Shown here: one piece after another, positions 2,530-63,000 of the stretch
Position numbering within the stretch: position 1 is the stretch's first letter
How the letters are laid out: every line of letters begins with the position of its first letter
Source of the DNA: Corythucha ciliata
Taxonomy: Eukaryota > Arthropoda > Insecta > Hemiptera > Tingidae
Assembly (NCBI GenBank): GCA_038030265.1
Contig: CM075942.1
Span: 12,668,029-12,732,028 of the forward strand
Direction of reading: 5' to 3'
Length of the DNA: 64,000 bases
The notes under the pieces: generated by a model
What the model was told of the DNA's origin: nothing
Database searches by the model: none
Seen by the model: the letters and a program-made list of their open reading frames with translations, nothing else
Position numbers and translations under genes: made by a program

Positions 2530-3215
2530 AGTGGTTTGTGAACCACGTATTGGGCAGCCTAGCAAAAAACCAATTTCGTGCGTTTGATCCTTCAAAAAAA
2601 CCATCTACCATTTTCAGGCACTTCAAAAGACCAATTTTTGGGGGTTGGCTGTGTGATACTCCAATTTCCTCTAGCGAACTTTCAAGATTTTGAAGTGTTG
2701 TTGGTGATGGGTTGGAGGGGGGGGACTCGGGGATGTGACACGTGACCCAGTGGTGAGATCATCCTGTGTGCCAATTTGTATGGGGACTGTCATTAGTGAT
2801 GCCTCGTCCACACACAAATTTCGCGGTGTGTTTCGTCGTTCAAAAACCAAATTTTGCATATTTCTATATTGAAATAACCGTTCTCGTGGATTTGGCTCCA
2901 AATGAAACCAATTTCACGCGTTTTGCAATTGAAAAAAAAAATTTCGCGAGGCTTAGTCGTTAGAATTCTCAACTTTGTGAGCTTCAGTCTCTGAAATAAC
3001 CAATTTAGCCGGCTGAACTCTAAAAAAAAAGTAATTTATGGTTTTTTTCTTAAAACTAACCATACTGTCGGGCTTAGCCACTTGAAAAAAACCAATTTCA
3101 CGGTGTCCAGTAATCGGTAAAGACCTATTCCGATGGATTTGTTCGTTGAGAATCCCGAATTTCTCGGATTTATCTCTTGAAAAAGTCAATTTTACAGCTT
3201 TAGATCACAAAAATC
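2530..3215 (+). repeat. Satellite family A, degenerate ~30-bp units
   Basis: Loose tandem units follow the pattern AATTTCGCGG, then GTTTGGCTC, then TTCAAAAAACC, at about 30 bases per unit. Copies diverge strongly, but the CAATTT(C)(G)CG core and the following A-run recur throughout. It passes into family B near 3,215. Confidence 0.75.
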
Positions 3216-4625
3216 AATGCCACGAGACAGTGGCTCAGCCATCAGTCAGCGTTACGACCATGGAACTTCCAAATCCTTAAACTCTGGGCTCTGGGCTAAC
3301 AATGTTGGATTCGCCACGCCGGCCGCCACGAAAAATGCCCCAAAACTTGCAATTCTGCTTAAATTAACGCCCGTAACTCCGAAGATTTCAATTTCACGGA
3401 TATTCAGTCCGAAAAAATTGTGACTTTGCTCAAATTAGCGCACGACTTAGTAAACTCACATTGATCTCAAAAATATTGCAATTACTGTGTGAGTGCAGTG
3501 CGGACCACTGGCCCAGTGTCTGCGTGCCCAAGAAAAAAAAAAAAAAACGGCCCTGAAACTTGCAGAAACTTGCATCTGCCTCGAAAAGTATGCCTGGAAA
3601 CACCCAAACATCCAATGTCACAGATACTTACTTCCAAAATATCGCAATTTCGTTGGGGGTACAGAGCGCGGCGTCAGTCTGCGACGTGGTCCATTCGTAG
3701 CCCTCTAGCCTGGCGTCCAAGGCCACAAAATTAACAATTTAATAATTCACCATTTTAGGGATACTGAGAATGTATTCGAAATTGAGACTCGTCGTTTTGA
3801 AAATTTCGCAAGATTGAAGACCCGAGACTTGCATTTTTGTAGCAATAATAGCCAAAACTGTTAAATTCGCGTATATTTATATGCAGGAAACTTGTAATTC
3901 ATTCATTCAATGTCATTGCAAATAAATTCGAATTCAAAGTTATGGGTGCAGTCGTTAGCGGGCCGGCATACTCTGATGGGTTTGCGCGCACTTAAAACCA
4001 GAAGGCCCTGAAACTTACAGTTTCGCTGTAAGTTTCCCTGTTGCTTGCAATAAATAGCGAATCACGTGGGTTCACCAGGGCTGGCGTTTCTATCGCCAGT
4101 AAAATTACAAATTCGCGGCTATTTCCTGTCTGCTGCCTGGCTTAGAAGATTTTGAGTTCCGCGGTCATTCAGAAAGATCCCCAAAACTCGAAATTTCGGG
4201 GAAATAAATACCAGAAACCGCAGGCTATTTTGCCATACCGGAAACTGGTAATTCCGCTGATTTTTAGCTCGCCGACAGATGTAATTTCACGGCTAAATTT
4301 TTCATAATTTGCGTACTATTGCGGCTGATTAGCTCTGGGTTCTCGGCCTCTACTCAAAAGTTAAAACAAAAAACCCTGAAACTTATAATTTCACGAAGGT
4401 TAAGACCAAAAACTTGCAATTTGCAGGACAATTAGACCCAAAACTCACAGTTTCGCAGATATTTAGCTTCGAATGATGTAATTCAACGCCTGCGAATCGT
4501 GGGTAAAATTAAAAAGAGTTTTCCAAAATTTAGCTGCGAATTGGCGATTTTTTCCCTTTTATTCTTGAATTATAGCGTTTTCCGTTAGCCACCAGAAACT
4601 GCAAATTAGCTTTTTCTAAATTTTA
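3215..4625 (+). repeat. Satellite family B, degenerate ~30-bp units
   Basis: Units follow the pattern GAAACTTGCAATTTCGCG then (A/G)ATATTTAGCCC. GC-richer interruptions containing GGGC, CTGGCC or GGCGTC words recur near 3,290, 3,500, 3,670, 3,960, 4,070 and 4,330, as in the larger B block at 48.8-51.5 kb. Short ORFs here are repeat translations. Confidence 0.75.
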
Positions 4626-4699
4626 ACCGCGAATATTAAGCCGTAAAGTGATTTTGCTATGAATGGTCTTGATTTCTGCAGAAAATCGTTTTTTTTGGG

Positions 4700-5150
4700 A
4701 CAAAATTTCATGACAAAATAATGTTCAATTTCAATCAGCCAGTTTGAAGGGCCAAATTCACGGTGTCCGATCGTTGGGGGGTGGTTTCGAACAAAAACCA
4801 GTAGGCAGCTGCTCACCCTGGCCCCCTCTTCGCTACTCCTTTACCAAGTGGTCCTTCAAAAGTTCAAATTTTCCCACATCTGGCCATTTATGAGAATCAA
4901 CTATCGTGGATTTGGCTCTTCCAAAAATCATTTCGTTGCTTTGGTTTTTAAAACAAACAAACAAACAGTTTCGCGAGGTTGGCTCTTCAGAAAAACGGAA
5001 AAATTGGATTCGGCTCCCCCAAAACTTTCAAGTCGAAGAATCAGCTTTTGGTCGAAAAATATGATTTTGGGGATGCAATTGACGCTTTCAAGAGGCGACA
5101 GCGGGAACAAACGTAGTAAACTGGTGGACAAATTTCACTTTTCGCATTGA
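4700..5150 (+). repeat. Satellite family A, second short block
   Basis: The A pattern resumes after the B block. Examples include TTTGGCTCTTCCAAAAATCA near 4,911 and TTTCGCGAGGTTGGCTCTTC near 4,970. Units are eroded but the roughly 30-base spacing is visible. Confidence 0.65.
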
Positions 5151-10469: not shown

Positions 10470-10760
10470 GACGTACTGTCAAGTTTTGGCACGAAACTGT
10501 AAAATTAGCTTGGAAACTGACAATTTCGCCCACATCTCCCTAGACAATCTGCAAATTCTGCCCCGAGAATATGTTTGGTTTAGCTTTAAACCGTCTGTTA
10601 AAGTCCAGCTAAAAGCAATTTTTCGGTCAATGGTGACATTTCTACATCCAGGGTCTGCTCTCTGAGTGAGGTGTAGTCCAATAACTCCCAATCAGCTTTT
10701 TTTTTTGTGAATTTTAACCGGAAATTTTGTCCATTAAGGAAGGCCTATTTCCTCTCTTAT
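10470..10760 (+). repeat. Satellite family B fragment
   Basis: Eroded B-type units (GAAACTGTAAAATTAGC, GAAACTGACAATTTCGCC, CAATTTTTCGG) at about 30-base spacing precede the C block. The short CTCTGAGTGAGG-type interruption near 10,660 may match the GC-rich interruptions seen in other B blocks. Confidence 0.55.
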
Positions 10761-10909
10761 TCTTGATGTAACCCGCGAAATACCACCAGAAGCAACGAAC
10801 CAGCATCCCCCCCCCACCAGTTTTTAGCCCGAACTCAACCAATAAATAACAGATCATAAGCCATAAGAATGCTGGGGCGCTTGTAAAATTGTGTATACAT
10901 ACAAAAAAA

Positions 10910-11300
10910 AATGAAGAAAATGCTAATATTCGTGGCTAAAGCTGTGAAAAATCAGTAAATCTAGGCTGGACGTTGCAAATTCGAGACAAGAATTAAGAAT
11001 AACGCTAAAATGGAGCTAAAGTGGAGACAAAATAGGTGATCCATGAATGAAATTGAGAAAATCACCGATTCACGCACAGAAGTGCAAAATACTCTAGTAA
11101 AAATCAGGGCTACAATTGAGAAAATTCGATAATTCACATGGTAGAAACTCTACTTCGCGGCTACAATTGAGAAAAATCAGTAATTTGAGCATTAAATGAA
11201 AAAAAAAGCTTTAATTCGCGGCTGAAATGAATAAAAATCGCTAATTAGCGTGGCTAAAATAAGGAAAAACGCTAGTTCGCGGCTAAAATGAGAAAAAAAC
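10910..11300 (+). repeat. Satellite family C, first higher-order unit (part P)
   Basis: Tandem units of about 30 bases follow the pattern AATTCGCGGCTAAAATTGAG then AAAAATCGCT. This segment matches 11,906-12,180 in order, including the shared phrases GCAAATTCGAGAC (10,975 and 11,906) and TACTTCGCGGCTACAATTG (11,151 and 12,081), so it is one half of a longer repeated unit. Confidence 0.75.
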
Positions 11301-11640
11301 TCCCTGCAAATGAGAAAAAAACCCAGACAAAGTGAATGGTAACCGTTACCATGGCAACCGTGGCTATGGTAACCGTTACCATGGCAACCGTTGCTATGGT
11401 AACCGCTATCATGGCAACCGTTGCTATGGTAACCGTTACCATGGCAAACGCTTGCATACGAGTCTGCAACGCATTGGGACATTTTCATGTAACACAATTT
11501 CGTCCATGGCACCCGTTGCTATGTTAGCCGTTACCATGGCAACCGTTGCTAGCCGTAACACAATTTCGTTACGCAATTTCGTGACAGTTTTTTGTGCTAT
11601 GTGCCAGGGCAAAGACATGAAAATGTCAAAACGCAAATTA
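11300..11640. mobile_element. Insertion in the C block carrying X-box palindromes
   Basis: The P and Q parts of the C higher-order unit are contiguous in the second copy but separated here by roughly 400 extra bases (P-P' offset 930-931, Q-Q' offset 522). The insert holds the 15-base X-box-like minisatellite and a perfect 13-base inverted repeat (GACATTTTCATGT at 11,478-11,490 and its complement at 11,615-11,627). Exact ends are uncertain because the flanks are degenerate. No coding capacity is seen. Confidence 0.5.
11336..11543 (+). repeat. 15-bp minisatellite of RFX/X-box-like palindromes
   Basis: Alternating 15-base units ATGGTAACCGTTACC and ATGGCAACCGTTGCT make contiguous near-palindromes. 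Matches to the X-box pattern GTTRCYATRGYAAC start at 11,345, 11,360, 11,375, 11,390, 11,405, 11,420 and 11,435, with further copies at 11,515 and 11,530 after a gap. Frames through it give repetitive MVTVTMATVAM-type or HGNRYHGNR-type peptides, which are translation artefacts. Whether RFX factors bind here is inference. Confidence 0.85.
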
Positions 11641-13230
11641 GCGGCAAAACTGATCAAAATAAAGAAGTTCACTAATGAATTTGTCAAAAAGCGGATAAAG
11701 TGTAACGATAAAATTCGCAGCATCTGAAGGCAAGTTTTTGACTGAAATTGAGAAAAATTGCCATTTCATGGCAAAAATTGAGGCAAATTGCTAGTTTGAA
11801 ATTGAGAAAAATCGGATATTCACGCACAAAAGTGCGAAAATCGCTAAAACTTGTATAAAAATCGCTCATTCGCGTTGTAGTAAACATGCTATTTCGTTTG
11901 CCGATGCAAATTCGAGACCAGAATTAGGAAAAACGCTAATTTGGAGGTAAACTGGAGAAAAATTAGGAATTCCACGAATGAAATGGAGAAAATCACCGAT
12001 TCACGTATGCAAGAGCGAAATACGCTTGTAAAATCACGGCTAAAATTGAGAAAAATTGATAATTCACAGGGTAAAAACGCTACTTCGCGGCTACAATTGC
12101 GAAAAATCAGTAATTTGAGCCTTAAATGAAAAAAACCTTTAATTCGCTTAAATAAGGAAAAACGCTAATTCGCGGCAAAACTTATAAAAACAAATAAATT
12201 TACTGTAATAAAGCGGATAAAGTATAGCGAAAAAGTTTGCAGCCTTTGAAGGCAAGTTCCTGAATGAAATTGAGAAAAATCGCCTTTTCTTGGTTAAAAG
12301 TGAAACAAATCGATAATTCGCTGCTAAAATTAAGGCAAATCGCTAAAATTAACGGTTGAAGTTGAGAAAAATCGCTAATTCGCGTTGTAATCAACATGTT
12401 ATTTCGCTGTTAACATTGAGAAAAATCAGTAAATCACGGATAAAAATGAGAAAAAACAGTAATTCGCGGCTAAAATGAGGTAACACTTTGATTCGCGGAT
12501 AACATTTTTTTAGAAATTGATAGAATTTTGCAAGAATGCTGTTTTTGATAGAATCGCGGCTAAAATGAAAAGAAATTATTAGAATTAAGAGGTGAAATTG
12601 TACATAAAAGAGCGTTTATTCCGCGGATAAACCGTTGAAAAAGCGTTAATTCGCGAATAAAACACCGAAAAGGCTAATTCGCAGCCTATGAAGGCAAGTT
12701 CGTGGTTAAAACTGACAAAAAATTGCTATAATTCATCAATAAAATTGAGAAAAAGATCTCAAAATGAGGAAGTGTGGACAAAGCGCTAATTCACAGTTAA
12801 ATGGCGGCTTGTGCAGACAACTTCATGGCTATGAGTTAACAAATGGCTTATCCGCGGCTAGAACTGTTGAAGCAAGCACTAATTTGCGAATAAAATTGAG
12901 AAAAACTCGGATTATTCGCGGCTAGAATGTACAATAAATCTCTTAGTAGCGACTCAAATTTGTACAAATGATTGATCGTGGCTAAAATCGGTCAATATGG
13001 CTAATTCGAGGCAAAAATTGAAAAAAAAAAAAAATTGCTATTTCACTGTTGAAATTGGGGAAAAGCGCTAATTTTCGGCTTTAAATGGAGGAAATGGCAA
13101 GTCGCGGTTTCTGGAGACCGCAAAAAGCGCTAACTCATGGCTAAAAGTGAAAATAATCGCTAATGTGTGTCTGATAAATTGGAAAAAAGTGCTTATTCGT
13201 GGCTTAAATTAAGAAAACACAGGTAGTTTA
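11640..13230 (+). repeat. Satellite family C, main block
   Basis: About 50 degenerate 30-base units of the C type. GCGGATAAAG occurs at 11,691 and 12,213, each followed by GCAGC, a TGAAGGCAAGTT phrase and ATTGAGAAAAAT, defining the Q half of a 522-base higher-order unit. Beyond about 12,450 this order breaks down into individually diverged units. Confidence 0.8.
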
Positions 13231-13309
13231 GTGATATTCGTGAAAATAATATTTCTTGTTTATTTAGACACTAATAAGGAGGCCTCATAGAGATTTCCGC
13301 ACATGCGTT

Positions 13310-13740
13310 ACGGTCACAAATCATATTCGCGTTTTTGATCAATTTTAGCTGGTGAAGGGGCCTCAATTAGCGTATTTTCTTCATTTTGACTGATAATTAG
13401 CACCAATTCTCAATTTCGGCCGCGAAATACCGATTTTTCTCACTTTTATCCGCGAGTTGGTGCGATTTTTCTAAATTTGAACCATAAATGAGCGCTCTTT
13501 TTATATTTTAGCCTCGAGTTAGGGTTTTTCGATTTTGTGACTTTTTGCAATTAGCGTTTTTTCTCTATTTTTGTGGTGGACTATGACCCGTGAACCATAT
13601 CCCCATTAGCGCATTTTGTTAATTTTAGCCAGGCGAGTTTTTCTCAATTTCAGTCGCGGGTTTGCCCTTGGAACAGCACATCAGCACCGCGATGTGACAC
13701 GTTTTTTCAATTTCAGCCATGAATATGCGCTTTTCCTCCC
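13310..13740 (-). repeat. Satellite family C, inverted segment
   Basis: Units now read TTAGCG, TTTTTCTC, AATTTTAGCC, GCGAATT, the reverse complement of the preceding block. The switch occurs within 13,230-13,310, which contains ordinary sequence (ATTTCTTGTTTATTTAGAC). This creates a head-to-head satellite junction. Confidence 0.75.
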
Positions 13741-16700
13741 ATTCAGGCGGCGTCAATGGCCGTCGAGGTTCATACGCAGACGCCGCCGCGCCATGCCACT
13801 CTCATTTCTGCAATGCCTTTCACACCATCGTTGCTATAAGCTGGGGCCTCTATAAGCCGGGCTATATCAACACTTACACGAAAGGCGGAATTAGCCACGT
13901 CCCGCACGTGGCATGGTTCACAACTAGGCCTTCGTACACTATACTGATCAAACCCTCTATACCCGTATAATAATGTGAAAAATAGACGTGAGCGACTCAA
14001 TTGTGGTGAGGGGAACTCAACGCTTCACTGAAACAATTGAGCCTGTATGGAAGCGTTGGCGTCTGAGGGAATGACTCAAACTCGCTCTGTCTATATGTAT
14101 AGCGTCATAGCGTGTGGTTCAGCTCGTTTTACTGCAAGCAAAATAAACTAGCGAGATGTGGTGTTGGTGTTGGGGGGAGAGGGCGATGAGACGGTTCTTT
14201 GACCCAAGTCCAAAAAGTTGGAAATGAGAGAACCACTGCACAGTGCAACCCTTCCTCTCGGCTGTTACAGTCTACAACACTTGGGGAAGAGAGAAAGGTG
14301 CTGAAGATGTTTCATTACAAAATAAATTATAATGGAGTCTTTTGCAAACAACTCCCTCACCCTCCATATCCAGCAACCACAGTACCACAATGTTTCTTCA
14401 ACTGATTCAACCCTTCTCACACACCCCCCTCCACCACACCACCCCTGGCCTCAATCAAGAAAGCCTTGGAAATAGCGGGTCTCTCACTCTTTCCCTCCGC
14501 GCGCACCAGGATCGAGATTCTTGGAAAAAGAGGCCCCATAAATTTGTGTTCGCGAAACAGCATATAAACAAAAAAAAAAAAAAGAGGAAGAAAAACGGTG
14601 GGAGGAATGCGTCTCCAGGCGACTCTCTCAGAGCGAAAGACTTTAGCATGAGATGGATCGGGGGTTGGGGGATGCTGCAAGGAAGAGAGGTGTAGAAGAA
14701 GACAAAAAAGACGAGGCCGTAGAGCTCTTATGTATTAGTAGAACAACCTTTGTTCATACGCGAGCAACACGTGTTCACGTCCAACCGTTCTCGAGGATTG
14801 TGGTGGTGTTGAGGAGGGCAAAGGGGAACGCTGTGACAATCCGCGGGGGGAATGGGAGACATCCAAGCTTTCGCGTCAAAATCTTAAGCGCCGTTGCCCT
14901 CGAGACTTGCGAAGAAAGGGACTTGAATGGAATTCGCGTTTTTTGTTTGTTTTGTTTTGTTTGTTTTTTTTTGGCGCAAAATAGACAGCTCATTGTTTCG
15001 ATTGGTATCTTCTTCGAAACAAATAAAGACGACAAACAGAAGGACACTCCTCCTTTCGCTAGTACTCCTTCTTATTTAGGGTTTCGCCGCATTATGTATG
15101 GAGGAAAAAGGGGTGGAAAGTGTCGTAGGCTTCATAGAAAAAAAGATGTTATCCGTCTCTGTATCTTTCCACTGACTCGGAAAAACGTTTGTTCTTGACT
15201 TTTGTGGAGGAAAAGCTGTTTATTTTCCCTCATTCCCTCTCATAGGACACTCCCTCTCCTTAAAACGGGATCTATTTTCAATTGCTAAAGAAAAGGACTG
15301 AAAGGAGCACCCTTTTCCGTTAGAGACTTCCTGTTTTCGCTAGAAAACTCGCCCCTTTTGACCGTCCACACGTCTATAAATGAAATTATCGAAAAGGAAG
15401 GCGAAGTTTCCATGGAAGCAATTTCCAATAAGCTCTAGGGGGTGTACACCGTCCCCGTTGTTGCAGCTTCGCATCGATAAATTACCAAAAGTGCGGTGCG
15501 GGGGTGGAGAGTCGAGCACGTTCAACTTTATGACAGTCAATAAGTAAGCCTATTACATATATATCGACTAATTGGAGCCGGTATTAGTGGTTTATTAGAG
15601 GGAAGAACCCTCAGCGGGAGGGCGGGTTTTCTTGTTATCTTCACGGGGGCAGGCTTGGGCCACATTTCAAAACCCTCTCCATGCTTGTGCCACCCATCCC
15701 TCTTCAAACGCAAAAGCCCTTTTGTGGGAGGTTTGAGCTTTCGGTGGTTGGGAAATTTTGCGTAAAACGCGTTGTGGGAGGGGAGAATTAGTGGAATTCT
15801 AAAGTGGAGAGGGACATGATGTATTGCACTGGCATAAATCATTGTTTTTAACTCTCTTCGTTGTTCCTTTTTCACTAGAGTGGACGCCTTTCTTCACTGC
15901 AGAAGATTCCCAGCTGAATCTTGAAGAATTTGGCTGAAACAACGCCACAGAATTCCATTACTTTTTATTCATATTTTTAGCGATACGAAAATCTTTTGTT
16001 TCGTCGATAAATACCCTTCTCGCACCCCCTCACCAGCATTCACCTATAGTCAGCATCCCTAAGGGACAACCACGTTCGACTACACTGTTACTTAAAGGCC
16101 TCTCGAGTATCTCCAACCCCCCCCCCCCCAGGACCACCATCACGTCTTCACAATTTAATAAATCATATACACCCTCACCCGCTAAGGAACAATGGAGGGC
16201 TGCCTCACCAATTACACCAAGGTGAGAGGAGATAATACAAGTTTCTCTCTCTTCTGTTTCTCCCTTTTGAGAGAAATATACAAACGCGAATGCCGCTCGC
16301 GTTGGTATATATATAGAGAGATAGAGCGAGAGGGACGAAGAAACAAGCGATACAACGTCCCGTGATTTATTAAAGGCTTCTCTCTCCCTTTAAACTCCCT
16401 TGGGGACGACCGCTTTTACCCGCCAAATTGGCTTGAATTAACTACTTTGGCCTTTTTGCCTTTTCTTTCTTCCTTTAAATTTAGTAAAAGGGCTCCATCT
16501 TCAACCCTCCTCGCAGAGTGATTGGCGAAAAAAAAAAAAAAGTTCCGCCCTTTCTTTGTCAGCTTCTTCAAGAAAAGTAACCCATGAACCCATGAAGAAC
16601 CCTACAGGAATAGTCTTAGTAGGGGTTGTTAGCTGTTAGTTGCGGGGGTGGGGACGGAGGAGGGCAGAGTGGCGTTTAAAAGACAAAGTTGATCGGATTA

Positions 16701-18335
16701 CAAAAACTTCACTTCATCTATCTTTTTCCTTGAGTGGAGCTAGAAGCTCCCCCACTTAAGATTTTATTGGCTCTGCCTCCACAACCCCACCCCTCGATAT
16801 CCACGACAATCACGACCACACTTAAGGGCACAAACTCAATTATAGGTTTTGTGCTCATTTCCACTCAGTTCCCTCGTCAATATTACAGTCTCCCCGAACA
16901 CCCTCAACTCTTCGTGAACGACAAAAGTTTCGACTTAGAGAGTTGAACGTCAGAATGTTGAAGTTTTATTCGGAATATCTAATAAAAAAAATTATAGCAT
17001 CGCTAGAATGTTTAAGTGCAACTTCCAACACACGTGCGTTTTATAAAATTGCCTGAAAAAAAAAAAAAAAATGATAAGTTCTTCGGTCTCTGAAAGAGAT
17101 CCTTTCATTCCCTAATAATCAATAATCAACGCTGAAAAAACCACGAAGCGAAACACACACTCACACAAAGAGCCAGGCCTCCCAGGCAGAAAGCTTTAAG
17201 TGAATATAAAACTTTAAACGGTAACAACATGCTATCATCCTCCCACCCCCACTCCAACCCGTTACCCGCCCGCCCACTGCCACACCAAACCACACCGGTA
17301 CACAAGATTCTCTCTCACTTTTTAATGAAGTAAAGGGGTGTGAGGCGCAAATCGAGCGATCGTGACACATCATCGACCCCGCTAGAAACAAGCCATCAGG
17401 CTCTTTTTACTAAAGAGATAAACATCAGTTTGAGGGCGAAAAAAGGAAGGAGAAAATGCCTTGACTACATAAATCCATTTTTTTCTCGTTGAAATGAAAT
17501 AAAAGGGCTTCTTTTTCTTAAACGGAAATGATAAAGAGCAATTAAAAAATTGAAAGTTAATTAATTTGCTACGCTCAACAATTACGCGCTCGGTTTTATA
17601 ATTTTTTTTTTTTTCATTCGGCGCACGATGAATCAGTCTGTAAACAAACGATGAATGTATAATTTTATGTATTGCTTCGCCTCGAGCACCCCCCCCCCTC
17701 ATCAATCATCAGTTTCTTTCACGCTACAAACGCCATCAACGACGCATTTAATTCAGTTCAAACTCATCTTGGACGATACTGTGAGGGAGGCCTAGGGATA
17801 AAACAGGATTCTTTACGGCCATCTAAAAGGCGTATAGTGGAAATTTTTAAAGCTTTTATTTATTTATTTACGGGCTTTAACGTTGATAGAAGGATTTTTC
17901 TGTAAGAGGATTTTAGCCAGACGTGGAAGATTTGGTTCCCAACGTGAAAGGGGACACGTCCTGCTGGGGATTTTGATATTCGAGGAATTTCAAATTTCGT
18001 AATTATAAAATGACGCCGAATTTACATAAATAAACGTTTGTGTAAACACCTAAACACAATCGCTCACGTGAAAGGGAAAACAATGAGCGCGTGCAATGCC
18101 AAGGACTCGTTACACCCGCAGAGATTCACGATAAAGTCCCAAGATTTTATTTTTATTTTCTTCCGTACCTTTTCACATTGTTGAAAACGTAGCAAACACA
18201 TGCAAACCATTCAGTGACGACAGTGTGACACGGAGCCTGTCACCAAACGTGTGATGGATGCGTTGATCAGCAGAGGGGCAGCTGCGAATTTGACCACGCT
18301 ATTATAGTACCTAGAGCTCACGTTATACCATTGCA
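13741..18335. other. Spacer without supported genes
   Basis: It begins with a GC-rich piece carrying the 9-base inverted repeat GGCGGCGTC/GACGCCGCC (13,746-13,754 and 13,779-13,787). The rest has poly-A, poly-C and GA tracts (near 14,571, 16,117, 16,310). The longest frame, 181 codons at 14,653-15,198, has no recognisable domain and includes a TTTTG-rich low-complexity stretch, so it is not called a gene. Confidence 0.5.
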
Positions 18336-18339
18336 GTTG

Positions 18340-34464: not shown

Positions 34465-34609
34465 GATAGCGTTTCCCATTTCCACAAAATTGTACAACGC
34501 GACAGTTAATTTCCACCCGTCTTCTCCAGTAACATGTGATTTAATTAAGAGTGGACGGGTGGAAATGAACAGCCCAAATGCAAAATTTTGGGCGAATGGG
34601 AAACGCTAT
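34465..34609. mobile_element. Fold-back (MITE-like) element
   Basis: Perfect inverted repeats ATAGCGTTTCCCATT (34,465-34,479 against 34,595-34,609) and TTTCCACCCGTC (34,510-34,521 against 34,554-34,565) are nested, so the 145 bases can form one long imperfect hairpin. No coding sequence is present. It lies about 190 bases beyond the 522-bp TIR element and shares no terminal sequence with it. Confidence 0.7.
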
Positions 34610-41734: not shown

Positions 41735-41880
41735 TGTCCTCCAGAAACCACGAATTGGTGTTTTCTCGATTTGTGCTATGAATTTGCGTATTTCTCGGTT
41801 ATGGCCGCAAATTAACACTTTTTCCCATTTTTAGCAGCGATTTATTGAATTCTGGCCACGAATTAGTGATGTTTCTCCTA
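41735..41880 (-). repeat. Satellite family C, minus, right end
   Basis: Units resume (TTCTCGATTTGTGCTATG, CGGTTATGGCCGCAAATTAAC) and end near 41,880 with CCACGAATTAGTG. Confidence 0.65.
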
Positions 41881-48839: not shown

Positions 48840-51700
48840 GCCACTGAGAAAAAAAGCTCCGTAACGTGCAATTTCGCAGAAATTAGTTACCCCGAACTTG
48901 AATTTTCATAGGAATCAAGCCCTGAAACTTGCATTCGCGTGGATAATCAGTTTGGAAATGTTCCTCAGGCTTTTGGCGTTGTAGAGGCCAGCTATAGCCT
49001 GGGTTCCACCACCACCAAAATGGTTCAAAACTAGCAAGTTTTTTGAAATTATGACCCGGAATTATCAATTTGCGTGGGAATTCAGCCAGGAAACTTGTAA
49101 TTTCGCTCAAAATAAACTCCAAACTTGTTGCAAAATCACACATTTCCAGCTATAAATTAAATGTTTCAATTACATGGCTATTCTTCAGGCTATGGGCGCA
49201 TGGGGAACAGCATAGCTGGAACACAAATATATGTATACCCTGAAACTTGCAATTCTACCGAAATCACGACCCAAAACACTCAGTTTTGCTGGTTATTTCG
49301 CTGAAATTAGGGCCTGAAACTTTAAATTGCAAGGATATTCGGGCAAGAAGTTGATAATTTCTTGGATATTTGGCTAGCCCGGGGCCTGCCACCAGAAAAA
49401 AAATGTTCCGAAACGAGTTTTTCTGAATAGTCGTCGATTGCAAGGCTATTCGTCAGGCTATGGACATAGTTGAGGTCAGCTAGGCTATGGTCCGCACCCT
49501 CATTTTGGAAAAAATACAATTACGCTTAAATTAATACCCGAAACTTTGCAATATTGTGATTATTCAGCTAGGAATCGTATCAATTTTGTGAATATTTTGC
49601 TCAAATATTTTGTAAATGTGCGGCTATTTGTCAGACTTTGGGCGCTGACTTGCCCCGTTAACACTCAAAGACCCGAAAACTTACAATTTCTAGAAATTAA
49701 ATCCTTAAAACTTAAAATTTCGAGAATATTTGGACCTTAAACTGGCAATATTGCGGATATTTCCAATAGGCACTTGCGATTTGGCCAATTTCCCACTCCT
49801 AATGCTTAATATCGTGGCTGTTCGCTAGAAATTTGGGTACTCTTGCGGCCGGCTAGCCTACGGTCCGGGCCTTCTGAACAACAACACCCTGAAATTTGCA
49901 ATTACGCTAAAATTAAGACCCGAAACTTCCAATTTTACAATTATTCTGCCATAAAATTATCAATTTCGTGGATATTGAGCCATTAAATAATGTTAATATT
50001 ATGTTATGGCATTTGTCAGACTGTGGGCGCTGACATGTCCCGCTAGCCCGCGTTCCATGAAAAAGAATCACTTGAAAAAGTGCAATAGTTGCAATTTCTC
50101 GAAAATAAATCCTCTTAAACTTACAATTTCGTGAATATTAGGACCAGAAACTAGCAATTTTGTGAATATTCACGCAAGACACCTGCGATTTCGCTCCAAA
50201 TGCTCAATATCACGGCTGTTCATCGAACTTTGTGGTACTCTCGTGGCCGGATGGTCCAGGGTCCGCACTGACTGAAAAAAAAAAAGGCCCTGAAATCTGC
50301 AATTTTTCCAAAATTAAGACCCTTAAACTTGCCGTTAAGCGATTAAGCTGCCGTTAAACCTACAATTTCGCTCCAAAATCTTGCTTCTGCGGCTATTCGC
50401 CGGACTTTTGACGCCGATATGGCATGTCCGGGTTATTTTAGCCAAGGGAAACTTTGGCGAAAACAAAACCCCGGAAAACTTCCAATATCGAGAAGGTATA
50501 GCTCCAAAATGTTGTAATTTTGTGGCAATTCGCTAGAAAATGGGTGCTAATACGGCATGCTGGTCACGGTTATGCGTGCAATAAATGAAAAAGCGCCAAA
50601 AAACTTGTCATTTCTCGAAGATGAATGCCTGAAAATTACAATAACGCGATTGTAGGCGGAACACTGGCAATTTTGTGCATATTAACACAAGAGACTTACG
50701 ATTTCGCAATTTTTTTTGCCTCAAATGGTTAATATCGGGGCTGTTCGCTAAAATTAAGGCCAGAAAATATAGCAATTTAATGATTAAGCAGCTAGGAAAC
50801 CTCCAATTTTGCTAAAAAATGTTGCTTCTGTGGCTATTTATCTGACTTTGTGTGCTGTCGTGTCATGCTCACAAGGGTTCTTTGACCACAAAAAAAAAAA
50901 AAAAAAAAAAAAAATGAAATTTCACGAAAACAATCGCAATTTCGCGGAAATAACGACCAGGAACTAGCGATTTTGCGCATGTTCACACTCGACACTAGAA
51001 ATTTCGTAGATTTTTAGCTCCGAATGATTTCATTTCGCAGCTACTCTATAAGCTTTGGGTGCTCACAGGGCCAGCGTTCTCCACAATAAAAAAAAATTAA
51101 AAACCTTTGACAATTTTTTAGAGCTATTTCGCGAAAGAAAATACCAGAAACTTGATATTTCGCTAATATTTGATCCTAAATTTTCAATAATGCCCGGATT
51201 TTTAAGTCAGAATGTATCAAGTTTGCGGTGGCTTGGCTTCGATGTTGCAATTTAGCGGTTTCTTGGCTGCTAGATTTTGTTTATTGACTGTAAAATCATG
51301 CAGTTTTGTGATATTTTAGCTAAAACATTCATTTTACTGTTATTCAGCCTCAAAACATGCAAATATCGACTCTTTTGCCATCGCTTGCATTTCTGGCCGC
51401 TGCTGAGCCCCCGAAACTGGCAATTTCATTGCTTTTTAGCCCTGAGTAATTACAGTTTTGTAACTCGTATTTCACTGATGGTTATTGCCTCCGAAACTTT
51501 GTTTATTGCCCGCCATCGTCTGTTTCGGGGGGATTAAACATTTTCAAACGTCCTTGCCCGTTTATTGGCAAAATTTGGTAGTATCTCAGTGAAAAATAAT
51601 CATTTAAAAGTGAAAAAACTATTTCTCGGGCAAAATTTCGAAATTTTCTTGTTTTTAAGGGCAGAATGCTCAGTTTTGAGGCTGATTAGCCGCAGTTTGA
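48840..51700 (+). repeat. Satellite family B, largest block with ~200-bp superstructure
   Basis: B units (GAAACTTGCAATTTCGC, then GATATT(T/C)AGCCC) alternate with GC-richer segments carrying words such as TGGGCGCTGAC, GGCCGGCTAG and GGTCCGC. These interruptions occur near 48,812, 48,985, 49,195, 49,455, 49,638, 49,845, 50,025, 50,245, 50,415, 50,545, 50,850 and 51,060, mostly 170-220 bases apart, and are often followed by an A-run. The block fades after 51,460. Confidence 0.8.
50890..50914 (+). repeat. Poly-A tract, 25 bases, in satellite B
   Basis: An A-run follows the GC-rich interruption near 50,850. Shorter A-runs occupy the same place after several other interruptions in this block, so it appears to be part of the higher-order unit and not a retroposon tail. 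Confidence 0.8.
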
Positions 51701-56100: not shown

Positions 56101-56734
56101 TAGGGCACGGATACATAGATTTCCTTGCATACAGTGTTTTTATGACGCGCCCCTATGATTTTCTTTAATGACTTGATTAATAATTCCTTCAATTAAAATT
56201 ATTAGTTTTCTGAGACAAAATGGCTAATATTTTTCATTTTTTACTCGTTTTTAAAACGTTTTAATTTGAAATTAATAACGACATGACTGGATATAATTAT
56301 CGAGTTAAGATAATCCTACTCGCTCATCGTGTTTCGCAGGCTCTCATTTTTCGCTCTTCATTCCGGTCCACCCACCTTGCGCTAAATATATTTCAACGCA
56401 AATTTTAACGATCCCTCGTTCCTATGCACGTGTATAAAACGCTTGCCTCACTCACTCGATTCCGACGCTTAATTTTAAAGGAAGACGAGAAAGACGAACT
56501 GTCTTTGCCAATTAATGCCTCCCTACCAACCTACCGTGTTACTCCCCTCACCACTATTTCTACCTTAGACAATTTATTTTTAGCTGAAGCATGCAATGTT
56601 TCTGTAGGTTTCTAACACGCCTAAAATTCGTGGTACCTGCAGGAAACTTCGTGGGTGTTGTTGAGAGAATAAACTAATTCATCACTCGATTTTAATCGTG
56701 AATCGTACATTATGCATACATTGCGTACATTTTT

Positions 56735-56875
56735 GCAAGACCAAGACCAAGATCATGGCTGCAAGACCAAGACCATGATTTTACTGCAAGACCAAGACGG
56801 AGACCAAGACCGCCCTTTCCTAAGCAAGAACAAGACCAAGACCGCCTTGGTCTTCGTCTCGCAAGACCACAACAC
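56735..56875 (+). repeat. CAAGAC/AAGACC hexamer minisatellite
   Basis: GCAAGACCAAGACC-type words repeat about a dozen times with interruptions such as ATCATGGCT and GGAGACC. Near the right end AAGACCAAG (56,832-56,840) faces its complement CTTGGTCTT (56,846-56,854) across five bases. Frames through it give KTKT or DQDQD peptides that are not taken as coding. Confidence 0.8.
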
Positions 56876-57049
56876 TGCGGTTTATGATCAGTTTCTATTA
56901 TAAAATGTTCATCAACCAGGAAGTTCCGAAATTTCTCGCAAGCCCAGGCTATTGCGAGTGCTTCGCGCTCAATACTCTCAGACGCGGATTCAGGATTTTC
57001 TCAAGGGAGGGGCTAGAGAAATTGTGTGCTTCGATCTACAAAAAATGGC

Positions 57050-57603
57050 TTGACAGCCTTTCACTGCCTAAAAATAGCTAAAACTAGCTATTCCCACTGT
57101 AATAACGGCTAAAATAACTAAACTCGCGCCCCAAAACAGAAAACTGACGATTCGCGTTTTGAAAATAACTATAAAAACTGACTTCACGCGCCATAAAAAT
57201 GGCTAAACTGGCGATTAGCGATCCCCAGAAAAGATTATGATTCTCACCCTAAGTCATCCCGCGGCTAAATCGACCGTTCGCGCGCTAAAAATTCGCCATT
57301 CTCGTCCCAAAGATGATCAATACGCGCCTTTGGCTTGACGGGGGACTGACTATTCGCGCCTTAAAATGGCAAAACTTACGATTCGCCCCTTTAAGATGGC
57401 TAAAAGCTAAATTGGCTGTTGCTCACTAGAAATAGCCAAACTAGCGATACCCGGTCTAAGTTATGGTCAAATGCCAATTTGTGGCTCTCTAAATGCCTAA
57501 AAAGATTATTGTATTACCGCCCGGAAAATGCGAAATCGATAATTGACGCGCCAGGAATGGTCAAACTTCATGGCCTTGGTTGGATAGACTGTTTGAGCCA
57601 TAA
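57050..57603 (+). repeat. Satellite family D, plus, left part
   Basis: Units follow the pattern GATTCGCGCC, CTAAAAATGG, CTAAACTGAC, about 30 bases each, strongly diverged. A GCGGATTCAGGATTTTCTC fragment just left of it (56,983) resembles part of the element at 60.3 kb. Confidence 0.8.
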
Positions 57604-58551
57604 AAATGGCAAAAACTGACTATTCGTGCCTCGAAAATGGCAAAACGACTATATTTGCGCCCTCAAATAGCGATTCCCTCTCTGAAAATAGCTAAACTGA
57701 CGATTCACTCCTTGAAAATGCCTAAGAGCAGACGATTCCTGCCCTGAAAATGGCAAAACTGACAATTTTCCTCTAAAAATGGGAAAAATAACTGACCACT
57801 CGGACCCTAAAATTGCTAAACTCCAGATTCGCGCCCTGGAAATGCGTAAAAAGATAATTCCAGGCATGCAAATTGCACTATCGACAATTCGTGCGTCTTG
57901 AAGTCGGCTTTGGTTTGATTGACTAGTATTGCGCTCCAAGGCAAAACTGACAATTATAAGTGTCTTGAAAATGGCTAAAATAACTATAATTTCCGAATTA
58001 AAAATCGCCGAGCTTACTTGAGGAGAGTCACAATGGATAAATTTAGGAATTACGCTCTAAAAATGCCTGAACAGGTGACTCCTGTTCTGAAAATGGTAAA
58101 ATCGGTAATTCTAGCGCGAAAACTGGTCTAACTAGCTGACCATTCTCACCTTGGCTTGGGAAGTACGATTCGCGCCTTTAACTGGCAAAACTGACTCCAT
58201 GTGCCCTAAAATGGTCACTATGGCTAATTCAAGCCTTGAAAACGTCAGAACTAGCTCTATGTGCCATGAAAATAGCTAAACTCACGATTATTAGCGCCTT
58301 GAAAATGCCTAAACAGGCAATTCCTGCCCTCAAAATGGTCAAAATGACCGGAAAATGGCTGTACTGGACATTCCCTTTCTAAAAAAAAAAAATAGGAACT
58401 GGTAATTCCTGCTCCAAAAACTACCAAAACTGACCATTCAGACCCTAAAAGGGCAAAACTGACGATTCGTGCCCTGAAAACTTCGCACTATAGATGACTA
58501 TAATGACAATTTGCGCCCTAGAAATGGCAAACTTAAAATTCGCCCTCTGCG
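57604..58551 (+). repeat. Satellite D higher-order unit, copy 1 (~947 bp)
   Basis: About 31 D units that are repeated almost unchanged in the following segment. The offset is exactly 947 bases at TATTCGTGCC (57,621 and 58,568). Copy 1 lacks a stretch of about 10-11 bases around 58,359 (CATAGGCGCCTG in copy 2). Confidence 0.9.
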
Positions 58552-59511
58552 AAATGGCAAAACTGACTATTCGTGCCTCGAAAATGGCAAAACGACTATA
58601 TTTGCGCCCTCAAATAGCGATTCCCTCTCTGAAAATAGCTAAACTGACGATTCACTCCTTGAAAATGCCTAAGAGCAGACGATTCCTGCCCTGAAAATGG
58701 CAAAACTGACAATTTTCCTCTAAAAATGGAAAAATAACTGACCACTCGGACCCTAAAATTGCTAAACTCCAGATTCGCGCCCTGGAAATGCGTAAAAAGA
58801 TAATTCCAGGCATGCAAATTGCACTATCGACAATTCGTGCGTCTTGAATTCGGCTTTGGTTTGATTGACTAGTATTGCGCTCCAAGGCAAAACTGACAAT
58901 TATAAGTGTCTTGAAAATGGCTAAAATAACTATAATTTCCGAATTAAAAATCGCCGAGCTTACTTGAGGAGAGTCACAATGGATAAATTTAGGAATTACG
59001 CTCTAAAAATGCCTGAACAGGTGACTCCTGTTCTGAAAATGGTAAAATCGGTAATTCTAGCGCGAAAACTGGTCTAACTAGCTGACCATTCTCACCTTGG
59101 CTTGGGAAGTACTATTCGCGCCTTTAACTGGCAAAACTGACTCCATGTGCCCTAAAATGGTCATTATGTTTAATTCAAGCCTTGAAAACGTCAGAACTAG
59201 CTCTATGTGCCATGAAAATAGCTAAACTCACGATTATTAGCGCCTTGAAAATGCCTAAACAGGCAATTCCTGCCCTCAAAATGGTCAAAATGACCATAGG
59301 CGCCTGGAAAATGGCTGTACTGGACATTCCCTTTCTAAAAAAAAAAAAAAATAGGAACTGGTAATTCCTGCTCCAAAAACTATCAAAACTGACCATTCAG
59401 ACCCTGAAAGAGCAAAACTGACGATTCGTGCCCTGAAAACTTCGCACTATAGATGACTATAATGACAATTTGCGCCCTAGAAATGGCAAACTTAAAATTC
59501 GCCCTCTGCGA
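58552..59511 (+). repeat. Satellite D higher-order unit, copy 2 (~959 bp)
   Basis: It matches copy 1 with about ten substitutions, two small length differences and the 10-11 base indel, so about 99 percent by eye, while neighbouring 30-base units differ greatly from one another. A third copy does not follow: similarity stops after CTCTGCGAAAGGGCAAAAC. Confidence 0.9.
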
Positions 59512-60070
59512 AAGGGCAAAACTGACTATTCACGCGCTCAATGAGCTTGGGAAAAATTGCATGCTATTGGCAAATAAACGCTCTAAAAATTGTCAAACTG
59601 ATCATTTGCGCCGTTGGTGTTAGTGACGAAGGTGTCTTGATTTTAATGAAGCAATGCTGTTTTGGCATACAGCCGTCTTAGACACTGACCACTGGTGTTT
59701 ACGAACCGAAGATGGGCCGTTCCCACCTTTCCAACTGGACCACCCTTCTTCCCCATCGCATGGTTACACGCAGCCCAAGAACTGGATAAACTGACTACTC
59801 TTGCGTTATAAAATGACTTTCCTGGCTCATCACGCCCTGGCAAATGGCGAAACTTATCATTCGTACGTGTTTCAAAAATGGCCTAACTGAGCCTCAGTGG
59901 CTAGAAAATGGTTAAACTTTAGACGATTCGTGCCCTAAAAGTAGCCAAACTGATCACTTGCGACTTGCAGATGGTTTAACTGACGATTCGTGCCATTAAA
60001 ACGCCTAATCTGACTTGCTGCGCAGAAATAAATGGCCAAACTGGCTAATACCACCCTGAAAATGGCTACG
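59512..60070 (+). repeat. Satellite family D, right end with a short insert
   Basis: D units continue but 59,612-59,770 is not D-like (GGTGTTAGTGACGAAGGTG, then GGACCACCCTTCTTCCCC), suggesting a small insertion. D units resume at about 59,780 and end near 60,070. Confidence 0.65.
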
Positions 60071-60290
60071 CGGTGGCTTCCCGTTTCATTAAACGCTGAA
60101 TCGTTGTGAGGTCGAATGCCAGTTTTTTGACTGTTGTCGAAAGTGGTACCTACTTTAACAAGGAACGGTTCGTTCCAAACGACCATGGGAAACTGGCCCG
60201 TAGAGGTGTCACGACGAACAGACAGTTTATGGCGTGTCATTGGAAATTTTGGGAAATTTTGGGAATTTCACGAGTCACTTTCCTTTTTCG
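60070..60290. other. Non-satellite piece between D block and retrotransposon
   Basis: A balanced-composition segment opens a minus frame of about 50 codons (60,070-60,240) with no recognised motif, then TTTTGGGAAATTTTGGGAAT. It may belong to an inserted repeat whose other end is the fragment at 60,290-60,365. Confidence 0.35.
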
Positions 60291-60365
60291 AGCCTTTTTC
60301 TACGCGCTGCCCCGAAGGAGGGGGCTGAAGCCCCCTGAGCCCCTCCCTAGATCCGCTACTGACTT
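60290..60365 (-). mobile_element. Fragment of a second repeat truncating the RT
   Basis: On the minus strand the reverse transcriptase similarity ends and AGTAGCGGATCTAGGGAGGG begins. It includes a perfect 8-base hairpin AGGGGGCT/AGCCCCCT (60,319-60,336 on plus). Similar GCGGAT(C/T)..AGG and GGGGGTTTGAGCCCC words occur at 56,983 and about 18,540. The family was not identified. Confidence 0.5.
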
Positions 60366-60760
60366 GTCTCACGTTCTCGTCATGATCTTCTTAATTCTTA
60401 CCCCAGATGAGAACGTCGTCGAGACGTCATCGTATGATGTCCAACCCATCCAGGATCTGCGACATCCTTTTTTGGAAAAATTCCGGTGCCGAGGTTATCC
60501 CGAATGGAAGACCTCTGAATTTGTAGCGGCCGTAAGGCGTCAAAAATGTGCTCAAGTCTTGACTTGACTCCGAAAGTTTGAATTGCCAAAAGCCACTGTT
60601 GGCATCCAATTTTGAGATAGCACCTGCCATTTGAGCTAGGGAAATTTCAATTCTCGAAATCGGATGAAATCTACGTTCGACGCTCTGATTAAGTTTAGAT
60701 AAATAAACACAAATTCTTACGCCAGCCGTTTTCTTTGGTACAACTACGATTGGTGAAAAT
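60366..60760 (-). pseudogene. Ty3/gypsy reverse transcriptase fragment
   Basis: The minus strand encodes the first conserved RT blocks in order: VVVPKK, VRICV, KLDANSGFWQ, TFLTPYGRY, LPFGITSAPEFFQ and LDDVLIWG. These are diagnostic of Ty3/gypsy RT, the enzyme that copies element RNA into DNA. A TGA lies just before the LDD box and a TAA just after it (60,391-60,393), and the frame is cut off by another repeat, so RNase H and integrase are absent. It is fused on its left to gag sequence, with protease missing. It is a non-functional remnant. Confidence 0.9.
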
Positions 60761-61159
60761 GTTGCCGCGTTCGGAGAAATCTAGCGCGTTCATAAATCAA
60801 ATTTCTCTGTGGAACGAAGTTTTGATCGAATTTTTCGACGGTGTCCTTGTGGTCATCGGCGTCGGCGAAAATGAAGCTAAATTTTCTTCGGATTTTTCCT
60901 ACATCTGGTATATCAGGACGTCAATTTGCCGTGGCTCAGACATTTCCGAAAGTCCACTGCCAGTGCGGTACCTTTCGAACCGTTTTTTCCACGATAACCA
61001 CTCACTGGCGTTGAAATTAAATTGATCTGGCGCCTGTAAAAAGAGGTATAATGGCGGAACGACTGCAGTTGCGCTCCTTGGTCGAGGATTCGGAGTAGTA
61101 ACTATTTCCCCGCGCTGGTTTTCGTACCGATTCGATGCACTTGCCGTGTCCTCAGTCAT
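60745..61159 (-). pseudogene. Ty3/gypsy gag fragment
   Basis: A minus-strand frame from 61,159 begins with an ATG and carries the gag (capsid) N-terminal pattern FNASEWLSWKKRFERYR then DVLIYQM. It is broken by a TAG at about 60,896-60,898 and then by a frameshift. The next conserved gag piece, FVPQRNLIYERARF, is readable around 60,780-60,821 in another frame. It then joins directly to RT sequence near 60,755-60,765, so the zinc-knuckle and protease region is deleted. The gag type is common in arthropod and other invertebrate gypsy elements. No LTRs were recognised. Confidence 0.85.
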
Positions 61160-62080
61160 TTTTGCGACGAATTTTTCGGTAGGGCGATCTCTGTAGATTT
61201 AGGTTCGTCATGCAACCGTTGTCTTTTGCTTAACGAGTGACACGCGCTGCCATCATTGTGTTATAATTTAGTCGAAAACGTTTTATTCAAAAAATCCTCT
61301 TTTTTATTTTATTTTAAAACTCTTTCAAAACTGTAGTCTGTCCACTTAGGGATGGACTCTCGCCCGCTCCCAAATTTATTGAAATGAACTTCCCCTTTAC
61401 CCCTTCTTCTAAAAATAACGCACCAGGAATAATGTTAGAACATATGATCACTGTGTAGCGTCTATAGTAACCATAGTGCCCGTTGTAGAAGTTTTTTGTT
61501 CATTTCTTTAAATATTTTTGGTAGGAGTGAACAAATCGAACGATCGAAGTGAAGCAACACGTTCGAGAGTCTATCACTAAGTAGACAGACTATAACAGAT
61601 GAAGCTTTTTAAAAATTGTTATTATGCTTCATCCAACAGTATGTACGTTGGAAAATGTCTTTATATTTCGGTCCATAGCTGGGTACTAGCGGTTTTCATT
61701 GAGGAAAATAACTTCTCGCCGTGCCCCGAAAGAAAAAAGTGCAGTAAAATCTAACGAGTAACGCATTTTTTGTTAAAATAATAGGCCTGTATAAGTATAA
61801 TACTCCTAAAAACCACTCAGTAAGGGAATGCATGCCCGAAAAAAAAAAAAAAAAAAAGGTGAAGGCCACAATCCAAATAGGAATTTGTCACTCAGTTACT
61901 GGTGTTTTACACCTCGCATTATGTCACCCCCGGTGTGACCGTGGATCACGATGTAATAACCTTTAACCTCGTGACCTCACCTCTCCTACAGATGTAATAA
62001 CCCCGTGAATTCGTGAGATTGCGAAAGGTGTGCTGATTCCTGCGTCACCTTCCTTAATATTACGTTACGCCGATGGCTAG
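61160..62080. other. Spacer without supported genes
   Basis: No gene is seen. It contains a hairpin GATGAAGC/GCTTCATC (about 61,599-61,634) and a poly-A run near 61,840. No gypsy LTR could be recognised beside the gag remnant. Confidence 0.5.
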
Positions 62081-62465
62081 AATCTGTGTATGAATGGCTC
62101 CTGGCCTTCTCGCGTGCCTGACTGGCTCGCAGGAGGTCAGGAACAGAATCGCTATTGGTAAAGCCTCCATCTCTACCCGAACCCGAGTACCTTCCCTTGT
62201 CGGGATGGCCCTACTCGGGTTGGGAGAGAGTGCACCAACATCCTCAACCCGGCATCGTCCTAACTGGGCCCGTGGTCCTAACTGAGCACGGCTGGCTGGT
62301 CACCTGCTGTGGCAATGTGGTTGGGAGTTGAGTGATGGGGCTAGGGCTGGGCTAGTCTGCCTGTGGACGATTCGGACCAGAGATGGAGAGATGATTGGGG
62401 CGCAGGCCAGATAAACTCGCGGAAACGGGTGTGGAGCTGGCCACAGCTTAAGGAGCCTCGGCAGG
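62080..62465. mobile_element. GC-rich island, possible repeat fragment
   Basis: About 385 bases much richer in G+C than their surroundings, directly before satellite A. It carries an inverted repeat AACCCGAGTA/TACTCGGGTT (62,180-62,189 and 62,212-62,221, extendable with mismatches) and a direct repeat GTCCTAACTG(G/A)GC at about 62,257 and 62,275. Frames are short and unrecognised. An inserted repeat is the simplest reading. Confidence 0.35.
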
Positions 62466-63000
62466 CTGGAATTTGACGATTTCACTCCTTTCAACACCAA
62501 TTTCGCGCTTAATGAAATCAATTTTAAGGGATTTGACTCCGTAAAAAGCTAATTTACGGGGTTGAACCGTTTAAAAAAGCAAACTCCCTACAGCTCACGG
62601 ATTTGGTGCTCACAGAGACCCAATTTTGCTAATTTAATAATCAAACATTTCTGGAACCTTGTACAAAACAATCGCCAAATCGGCCAAGACAAATCGGCTT
62701 GGCTAATTCGAACAATAAGGAAAAACTAAGAGGGGCTTAAATCCGTCAATTTAATCGTCTCGTTTAATAAAGAATGAAACGAAGACCGAACCGGAACGAA
62801 GAGCGAAACGGAGACGGTGAAATTTTTCCGTCTCGTTTTAATCCCAATTTCAGACAGTTTCGCTCTTTCAAAAGTCAAATTTCTTGGGTATTGCTCCTAT
62901 ATTCAATTAATCAACAACATAATTTCGTGGATTTTACTCCTTTAAACCCAAATTTCGGGGATTTTTTCGATCAATTCGTCTATCCGAGACGAACCACTTT
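62465..63000 (+). repeat. Satellite family A, last block
   Basis: A units (CAATTTCGCGC, AATTTTAAGGGATTTGACTC, AATTTCGTGGATTTTACTCC) at about 30 bases. A GAACGAAGAGCGAAACGGAG purine-rich stretch near 62,793 interrupts them. Confidence 0.7.

Follow-up and report, generated by a model that had tools for sequence, protein, structure and literature searches.

The 64,000-nucleotide stretch of the Corythucha ciliata genome analysed here, hereafter the window (contig CM075942.1 of an assembly of 400.9 Mb in 57 contigs, 7 of them chromosome-sized; GCA_038030265.1), carries dispersed tandem arrays of diverged 30-31-bp units that fall into four families, A, B, C and D. When set in phase, the units of all four families have a 17-20-nucleotide half in common, and our analyses suggest that the arrays probably go back to one ancestral unit and travel, for the most part, as cargo of non-autonomous hAT-like transposons. 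The window reads as eukaryotic, with only 2 open frames of at least 150 codons; a window-wide Rfam search returned no match, and a bacterial-code scan of the window found no tRNA gene. Families were delineated with cyclic profile hidden Markov models (HMMs), started from random units and trained per cluster; each model joins 29-31 match states in a loop, allows insertions and skips, and has a further state for outside sequence. The letters were assigned independently and may differ from the A-D of an initial annotation that had described four satellite families in this window. For the genomic context, 19 loci of 10 kb were sampled (190 kb from all seven chromosomes, 0.05% of the genome), and further loci, L028-L034, were picked by their match to an A query, so that A links among the latter are biased and the D and C arrays found there are incidental. 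The features of the window, called by HMM unless other evidence is given, are as follows.

2562-3224, plus strand: C array of 31-bp units (HMM posterior)
3325-4716, no single strand: B array of 31-bp units whose final ~350 bp were called as minus-strand B; stretches are 61-63% like the 48.8-51.5 kb cluster
4850-5091, plus strand: short C array, training gain only slightly above null
10907-13262, plus strand: A array of 30-bp units with an internal duplication (offset ~930 bp, 280 bp at 84%)
13360-13748, minus strand: A array facing the preceding one
18515-20662, minus strand: D element remnant with a D array at 18896-20648, both flanks homologous to the 57-60 kb copy
20667-21543, minus strand: C array directly adjoining the D remnant
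26779-28260, minus strand: A array; 27262-27323 weakly resembles an A 5' leader profile (E 4.9e-4)
32452-33749, plus strand: C array, interrupted at ~33458-33664
39628-39895, minus strand: C array
40774-41877, minus strand: A array with two insertions resembling miniature inverted-repeat transposable elements (MITEs)
48848-51463, plus strand: B arrays with higher-order structure, each block comprising several 31-bp units and a spacer beginning TTTGGGCGCTGAC
56863-56976, minus strand: RNase H-like piece of a Ty3/gypsy-like pol that runs up to the D element (PF17917, E 1.8e-9)
56979-60361, plus strand: whole D element with hAT-like ends CAGACGCGGATTCAGG and, inverted, CAGTAGCGGATCTAGG, and a D array at 57039-60068 inside
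57604-59531, plus strand: tandem duplication within that D array, 982 bp, 97.6% identical, offset ~948 bp (self-comparison; Tandem Repeats Finder lists the array twice, offset 947)
60430-60780, minus strand: reverse-transcriptase piece of a Ty3/gypsy-like pol, on the opposite side of the D element (PF00078, E 3.3e-9)
62470-62966, plus strand: weak, interrupted C array, gain modestly above null

The main array clusters showed match-autocorrelation peaks at a lag of 30 or 31 when analysed in 1.5-kb windows, mostly with an echo at 60-62 (z 4-10); the peaks were weaker in the short clusters at 39.6 kb (z 3-4) and 62.5 kb (z 2-3). By HMM the best unit length was 30 bp for A and D and 31 bp for B and C, one short C cluster (39600-39960) fitting 30 slightly better than 31. 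In the four large clusters the best five of eight starts reached about equal likelihood and the top two gave the same consensus; the consensus units obtained from random units are GCTAATTCGCGGCTAAAATTGAGAAAAATC for A, CTTGCAATTTCGCGGATATTNAGCCCNGAAA for B, AAACCAATTTCGCGGGTTTGGCTCNTTNAAA for C and CTGACNATTCGCGCCCTAAAAATGGCTAAA for D, and the remaining clusters, trained singly, returned the same families, bar two stretches first called B. The training gain was 136-1058 nats in 12 of 16 clusters, compared with null gains on Markov-shuffled sequence of 54-74, 65-90 and 73-99 nats for 400, 600 and 1400 bases, respectively; 4735-5060 (81 nats) and 62470-63000 (111 nats) exceeded the null modestly. 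The stretches 10480-10830 and 18300-18860 were rejected as B arrays, their gains of 60-72 nats lying within the null. Models started from random units thus recovered four families, with arrays on both strands, heavily diverged units and adjoining families, as the initial annotation had described. Its period of about 30 bases applies as such to A and D, B and C being mostly at 31, and its B-D-A order at 18.3-21.6 kb reads instead as a weak stretch within the null followed by D and then C.

A fifth family, E, has a 20-bp unit and occurs at L026 9133-10000, where it adjoins a D array, at L017 7050-8563 and at L018 8926-9548, so that a 30-bp unit is not universal; its reverse complement has AAACTGACGATT in common with D. 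Arrays with periods of 34, 40 and 46 also occur, and no other lag near 30 stands out beyond A-D. The periods of 30-31 bp fall within the unit size of minisatellites (roughly 10-60 bp). Families A-D cover 24.8% (runs of at least 60 bp) to 26.1% (all bases with posterior >0.5) of the window, less than the third first estimated. Across the 19 sampled loci they cover 13.0% by runs and 15.3% by bases (standard error 3.1), with single loci ranging from 1% to 54%; since ~40-60% of the E stretches scored as B, E lies partly inside these percentages and inside the B statistics. Coverage was counted over both strands and its controls on one: Markov-shuffled sequence from 6 of the 19 loci, the control relied on, gave 0.16%, and reversed non-complemented sequence from all 19 gave 2.2%, mostly in array-rich loci where the periodicity survives reversal, a harsher control that would lower coverage by up to ~4.5 points. 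Tandem Repeats Finder, which had been proposed as a check, reported only fragments of the arrays; repeats so worn are mostly missed by such a program and, being short and dispersed, are easily left unannotated.

The best common 17-column block of the four profiles scored 54.8, a value reached by 0 of 200 dinucleotide shuffles (mean 28.4, sd 4.7, maximum 54.5); the block of width 20 was likewise reached by 0 of 200, and those of widths 8-14 by 1 to 4 of 200. In the block an A-tract is followed, after a few bases, by AATT or ATT and (T)CGCG, and the remaining 10-13 nt of the unit are family-specific. ATT(T)CGCG is present in all four consensus units, and the shared (A/G)ATT(T)CGCG frame of the initial annotation is borne out by the four-way comparison, as part of a longer block that extends upstream of that core. 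Pairwise consensus alignments give a mixed picture: in the six pairs the observed score is reached by 8, 29, 4, 0, 2 and 15 of 120 dinucleotide shuffles. In these alignments A matched reverse-complemented B (14.6) better than forward B (10.5), and at width 12 other four-way strand combinations scored 47.1 vs 47.2, so that this short block does not settle in which direction B and D run with respect to A. Descent of the four families from one older unit is most likely and would be the simplest reading of the in-phase block, in keeping with the suggestion that one ancestral 30-mer had split; the same test does not tell descent from convergence, and convergence is possible.

The recurrence of period and core across four families could also reflect selection on 30-bp spacing and on the CGCG core, for example through a phased DNA-binding protein or nucleosome positioning, which was the other suggestion made for this window. 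Column statistics from 985 decoded units in 43 arrays do not bear out the accompanying claim that the core persists while units diverge: identities at the CGCG columns are 0.60-0.64 in A, 0.54-0.65 in B, 0.51-0.70 in C and 0.54-0.76 in D, and the core averages of 0.60-0.63 lie below the all-column mean of every family (A 0.76, B 0.67, C 0.69, D 0.73). Most A-tract and ATT columns stand at 0.79-0.96, and a few other columns lie below the core. Decay of the core proceeds largely by transitions, which make up 0.66-0.79 of the changes at core columns 1-3, except at D column 2 (0.38), and do not predominate at the fourth (0.41-0.54). Between copies of the same element, CpG-type columns changed faster than others (17/199 vs 37/653, 19/186 vs 38/722, 27/130 vs 57/419 and 27/119 vs 44/382, the last two pairs sharing one copy), as methylation of CpG would produce; observed/expected CpG is still 1.03-1.46 within arrays and 0.91 outside, so depletion is only partial. 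Spacing is exact in 35% of A, 43% of B, 31% of C and 41% of D units, and neighbouring spacings show no compensation (lag-1 correlation -0.06 to 0.03). Furthermore, arrays diverge about as fast as their flanks, flank/array identities of copies being 0.877/0.898 and 0.906/0.919, where the "flank" of the L030/L031 pair contained one short array segment. What speaks for selection, besides the recurrence itself, is that changes at consensus positions fall below a simple neutral count in copy pairs (CN/NX 2.7 vs 6.6, 3.2 vs 6.2, 5.3 vs 8.5 and 6.3 vs 7.0), a mild deficit for which uneven mutability of the columns could account. Taken together, these data make selection on spacing and core extremely unlikely as the explanation of the arrays.

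The relationship between neighbouring units bears on how the arrays were built. In A, unit identity is 0.619 at lag 1, 0.632 at lag 10, 0.627 at lag 40 and 0.625 between arrays; the corresponding lag-1 and between-array values are 0.559 and 0.548 for C, 0.602 and 0.587 for D, and 0.548 and 0.494 for B, whose between-array set includes two E-like arrays. Local homogenisation of neighbours is thus absent from A and nearly so from C and D, and the clear exception in lag, D at lag 32 (0.726), is the 982-bp duplication. Identity to the family consensus per array is 0.74-0.80 in A (21 arrays), 0.66-0.68 in B (5), 0.64-0.73 in C (22) and 0.69-0.77 in D (11). Identity that does not depend on lag, together with uniform divergence, suggests one early burst followed by decay; continuing unequal exchange would not give these. 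Ordinary satellite DNA, in which unequal exchange and gene conversion would have remade arrays of an ancestral 30-mer that split, would explain the tandem arrangement with its shared in-phase block, and could claim the recent D duplication, the higher-order B blocks and the slightly higher identity within B arrays than between them. Such a history is nevertheless highly unlikely, because neighbouring A units resemble each other no more than they resemble units from other arrays, and neighbouring C and D units barely more, and because the arrays are short and dispersed and occur in copies with unique flanks, some with target-site duplications. The label "satellite" is therefore not the most apt for these arrays, several of them being internal to transposons. 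Recent duplications do occur beside A arrays in L010 (5009-9735), one of 989 bp (99.4%) and one of 346 bp (100%).

Unit order was shared in 15 of 503 array pairs (more than 6 above the largest of 20 permutations), 4 pairs lying below by as much; the test left out pairs within L010, with its recent duplications, and arrays with fewer than 5 units. The order-sharing pairs connect 8 of the 11 D arrays. Several arrays recur together with their surroundings. An A element common to L026 and L027, on the same chromosome 15 Mb apart, has unique flanks on both sides at 82-88% and an array at 90%; a second A element is common to L030 and L031 (90-91% over ~1.8 kb), and an older one to L028, L010 and L032 (73-79%). 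The C arrays of L011, L021 and L034 have a common non-array flank on each side. For D, the left flank is common to three copies, the whole window copy, L026 and the 18.9-20.6 kb array, and the right flank to the two window copies; in the remnant, nhmmer placed the left flank at 20620-20662 (E 2.2e-7, the outermost ~40 bp missing) and the right flank at E 3.7e-5, with a hAT-like end CAGACGTGG at 18515.

The D copy at 57-60 kb lies inside an old Ty3/gypsy-like pol, as indicated by the RNase H and reverse-transcriptase fragments on either side of it. The stretch that normally joins these two domains was not noticed in the reading frames, no search having been aimed at it, and the 8-mers flanking the element match at 5/8, so the insertion appears unclean or decayed. 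That D is an inserted element is therefore established in part, by its matching ends and the interruption of pol, without a clean duplication. A short array of GCAAGACCAAGACC-type repeats (56734-56850) stands beside the RNase H fragment.

Ends of the CAG...CTG type or the TAGGGTGACC type are typical of hAT transposons, and four hAT-like end types could be distinguished here, CAGTGGCGGATC, CAGKGNYGTAGG, CAGTGGTGGCCAACCC and TAGGGTGACCAGA. The L027 A copy has the ends CAGGGGTGTAGGTATG and, inverted, CAGTGACGTAGGTATG, with GTTTGGGG flanking both sides (8/8), and the L030 A copy the ends CAGTGGCGGATCTA and, inverted, CAGTAGCAGATCTA, with AGCTGGAG flanking both sides (8/8). Among 117 inward-facing end pairs in the loci examined, the flanking 8-mers matched at 0-4 positions in 107, at 5 in 4, at 6 in 1, at 7 in 2 and at 8 in 3. 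The end motifs were partly derived from L027 and L030 and pairs may share an end, which makes the cross-locus control the fair comparison: at least 7 matches occurred in 5 of 10118 end pairs, so that ~0.06 would be expected vs 5 observed. Three of these five pairs enclose arrays, those of L027 and L030 A arrays and that of L029 (7/8) a C array; the other two, in L005 and L017, enclose no A-D array. Two right ends were predicted before the sequence was read, those of the L034 C array and the L032 A copy, and one held: in L034, whose left end reads CTAAAATC|TAAGGTTACC, a right end like GGT.ACC.TA followed by CTAAAATC was expected and was found as TTTTACATCTGGTCACCCTA|CTAAAATC (8/8). Terminal inverted repeats match at 12-13 of the first 20 positions in L026, L027, L029, L030 and the window D copy and at 9/20 in L034, the end types in this comparison having been chosen from the same loci. 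The arrays of L027, L030, L029 and L034 lie in the interior of their elements, each in a single orientation, so that these elements do not have the long inverted termini of tandem repeats that characterise foldback transposons.

Several results weigh against reading the arrays as cargo of hAT-like elements. Of the 63 arrays examined, only 4 lie between ends with an 8-bp duplication matching at 7-8/8, two of family A and two of family C; the L026 pair, which encloses an A array and an insertion resembling by eye a long interspersed element, matches at 6/8, the window D copy at 5/8 as given above, and no 8-bp duplication was seen by eye at the C elements of L011 and L021. The L032 prediction failed, in that the right end expected ~2 kb downstream and followed by GTCGACCT was absent from the 3.9 kb downstream of the left end. 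Unguided scans for inverted ends with 8-bp duplications gave no excess of candidates relative to a mismatched-flank control (49 vs 47.9 in 61 clusters, 25 vs 23.6 in 44 clusters), with a low-complexity filter that dropped L027, the sole clear case of an earlier unguided scan of 43 arrays. Complete ends were not found at any A, B or C array of the window; the A leader profile matches two window A clusters weakly (E 2.6e-4 and 4.9e-4), and as the profile overlaps the array start, likeness of units may contribute. No element ends were found for B, and its blocks have the higher-order structure noted above, being 61-74% alike within the window and with L021. Finally, the elements that enclose A arrays have ends of at least two kinds, probably three, and those around C arrays have ends of two kinds; repeated capture of pre-existing arrays would fit this as well.

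Such capture of already old arrays is the main rival. In that account the arrays would be old free-standing minisatellites, abundant everywhere, some of which hAT-like elements took up as passengers, most dispersal having come about otherwise, by block duplication or other elements. The differently ended elements around both A and C arrays favour it, as does the lack of ends at most arrays, and the A units, at ~38% divergence, are far older than the two best element pairs (~10%). We nevertheless regard it as possible but rather unlikely, because 8 of the 11 D arrays are linked to another of their family by shared unit order, because the C arrays of L011, L021 and L034 are embedded in common non-array sequence on both sides, and because meeting the same A element twice in 0.05% of the genome suggests a high copy number of array-bearing elements. 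Both readings could hold for different families.

Transposition of the arrays as cargo is thus the account that we hold to be the likelier one. According to this model, an older common unit would have split into four families that kept a 17-20-nucleotide half in phase, and the founder of each family would have built a tandem array, apparently in one early burst, since local copying at later times has left hardly any sign, except for a few long duplicated blocks. Elements with hAT-like ends may then have spread by cut-and-paste, mobilised in trans by a putative hAT-type transposase, their copies retaining unit order and subsequently decaying, more quickly where the CGCG motif has its CpGs. The model would extend to B and to arrays whose ends can no longer be read. 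The shared half might itself be a working part of transposition, such as a repeated subterminal binding site for the transposase or a host factor, taken up by at least three hAT-like lineages with different ends; this seems improbable but, if true, the module would be a tandem "enhancer" that let hAT-like elements fill over a tenth of the genome. If 13-15% of the 401-Mb genome is array cargo of a few types of element, C. ciliata would be a good place to study how tandem arrays are born within transposons, what makes several families retain half of the unit in common and how arrays grow old without homogenisation, the in-phase block and unit order providing direct tests of descent versus convergence and of element birth versus capture.

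Other observations concern individual stretches. Opposite A arrays stand side by side in L012 (1067-6358) and L016 (8030-9781), where they are divergent, and at 10907-13748 of the window, where they are convergent; the segment between them is common to L012 and L016 at 73-76%. Within the convergent cluster, a partly palindromic unit of 30 bp, ATGGTAACCGTTACCATGGCAACCGTTGCT, is repeated almost perfectly at 11336-11455 (92% matches), and a related stretch lies at 11504-11551. The insert at 33458-33664 in a C array is ~200 bp long with an A-rich tail and by eye resembles a short interspersed element; the bacterial-code scan called no tRNA gene in it, and it has no second copy in the loci examined. 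Of the two MITE-like insertions in the A array at 40774-41877, that at 40915-41030 (116 bp) has copies at 80-91% in L009, L011, L016 and L027, and that at ~41598-41734, palindromic by eye, has an 80% copy in an A array of L016. An imperfect 144-bp palindrome lies at 34466-34609, with related stretches in L022 and L026.

The elements described here resemble non-autonomous hAT elements (hAT MITEs) with internal minisatellites, which likewise have short inverted ends of the types given above and 8-bp target duplications; in the present case the elements are recognised by ends and duplications, and arrays of one kind occur with more than one type of end. No report of these families was found among the titles and abstract openings listed by searches of open-access literature, which does not amount to a claim that they are absent from print. 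Transposon-derived satellite and minisatellite DNA, as reviewed in PMC9659126, likewise comprises tandem repeats spread by or born within transposons, and among its examples, in the parts consulted, there was no case of four in-phase families at such scale. In PMC4079207, Tetris of Drosophila virilis is described as a foldback non-autonomous DNA transposon with TIR-220 tandem repeats, three complete copies of which have target duplications of 8-9 bp. The likeness to Tetris is that tandem repeats are carried by a non-autonomous DNA transposon and that, according to the same account, neighbours in bulk arrays are no more alike than distant repeats. However, the Tetris repeats are ~220 bp long, lie in long terminal inverted repeats and are grouped in two of the three complete copies (PMC4079207), whereas in C. 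ciliata the units are of 30-31 bp, occupy the interior between short ends, belong to four related families and make up ~13-15% of the sampled genome.

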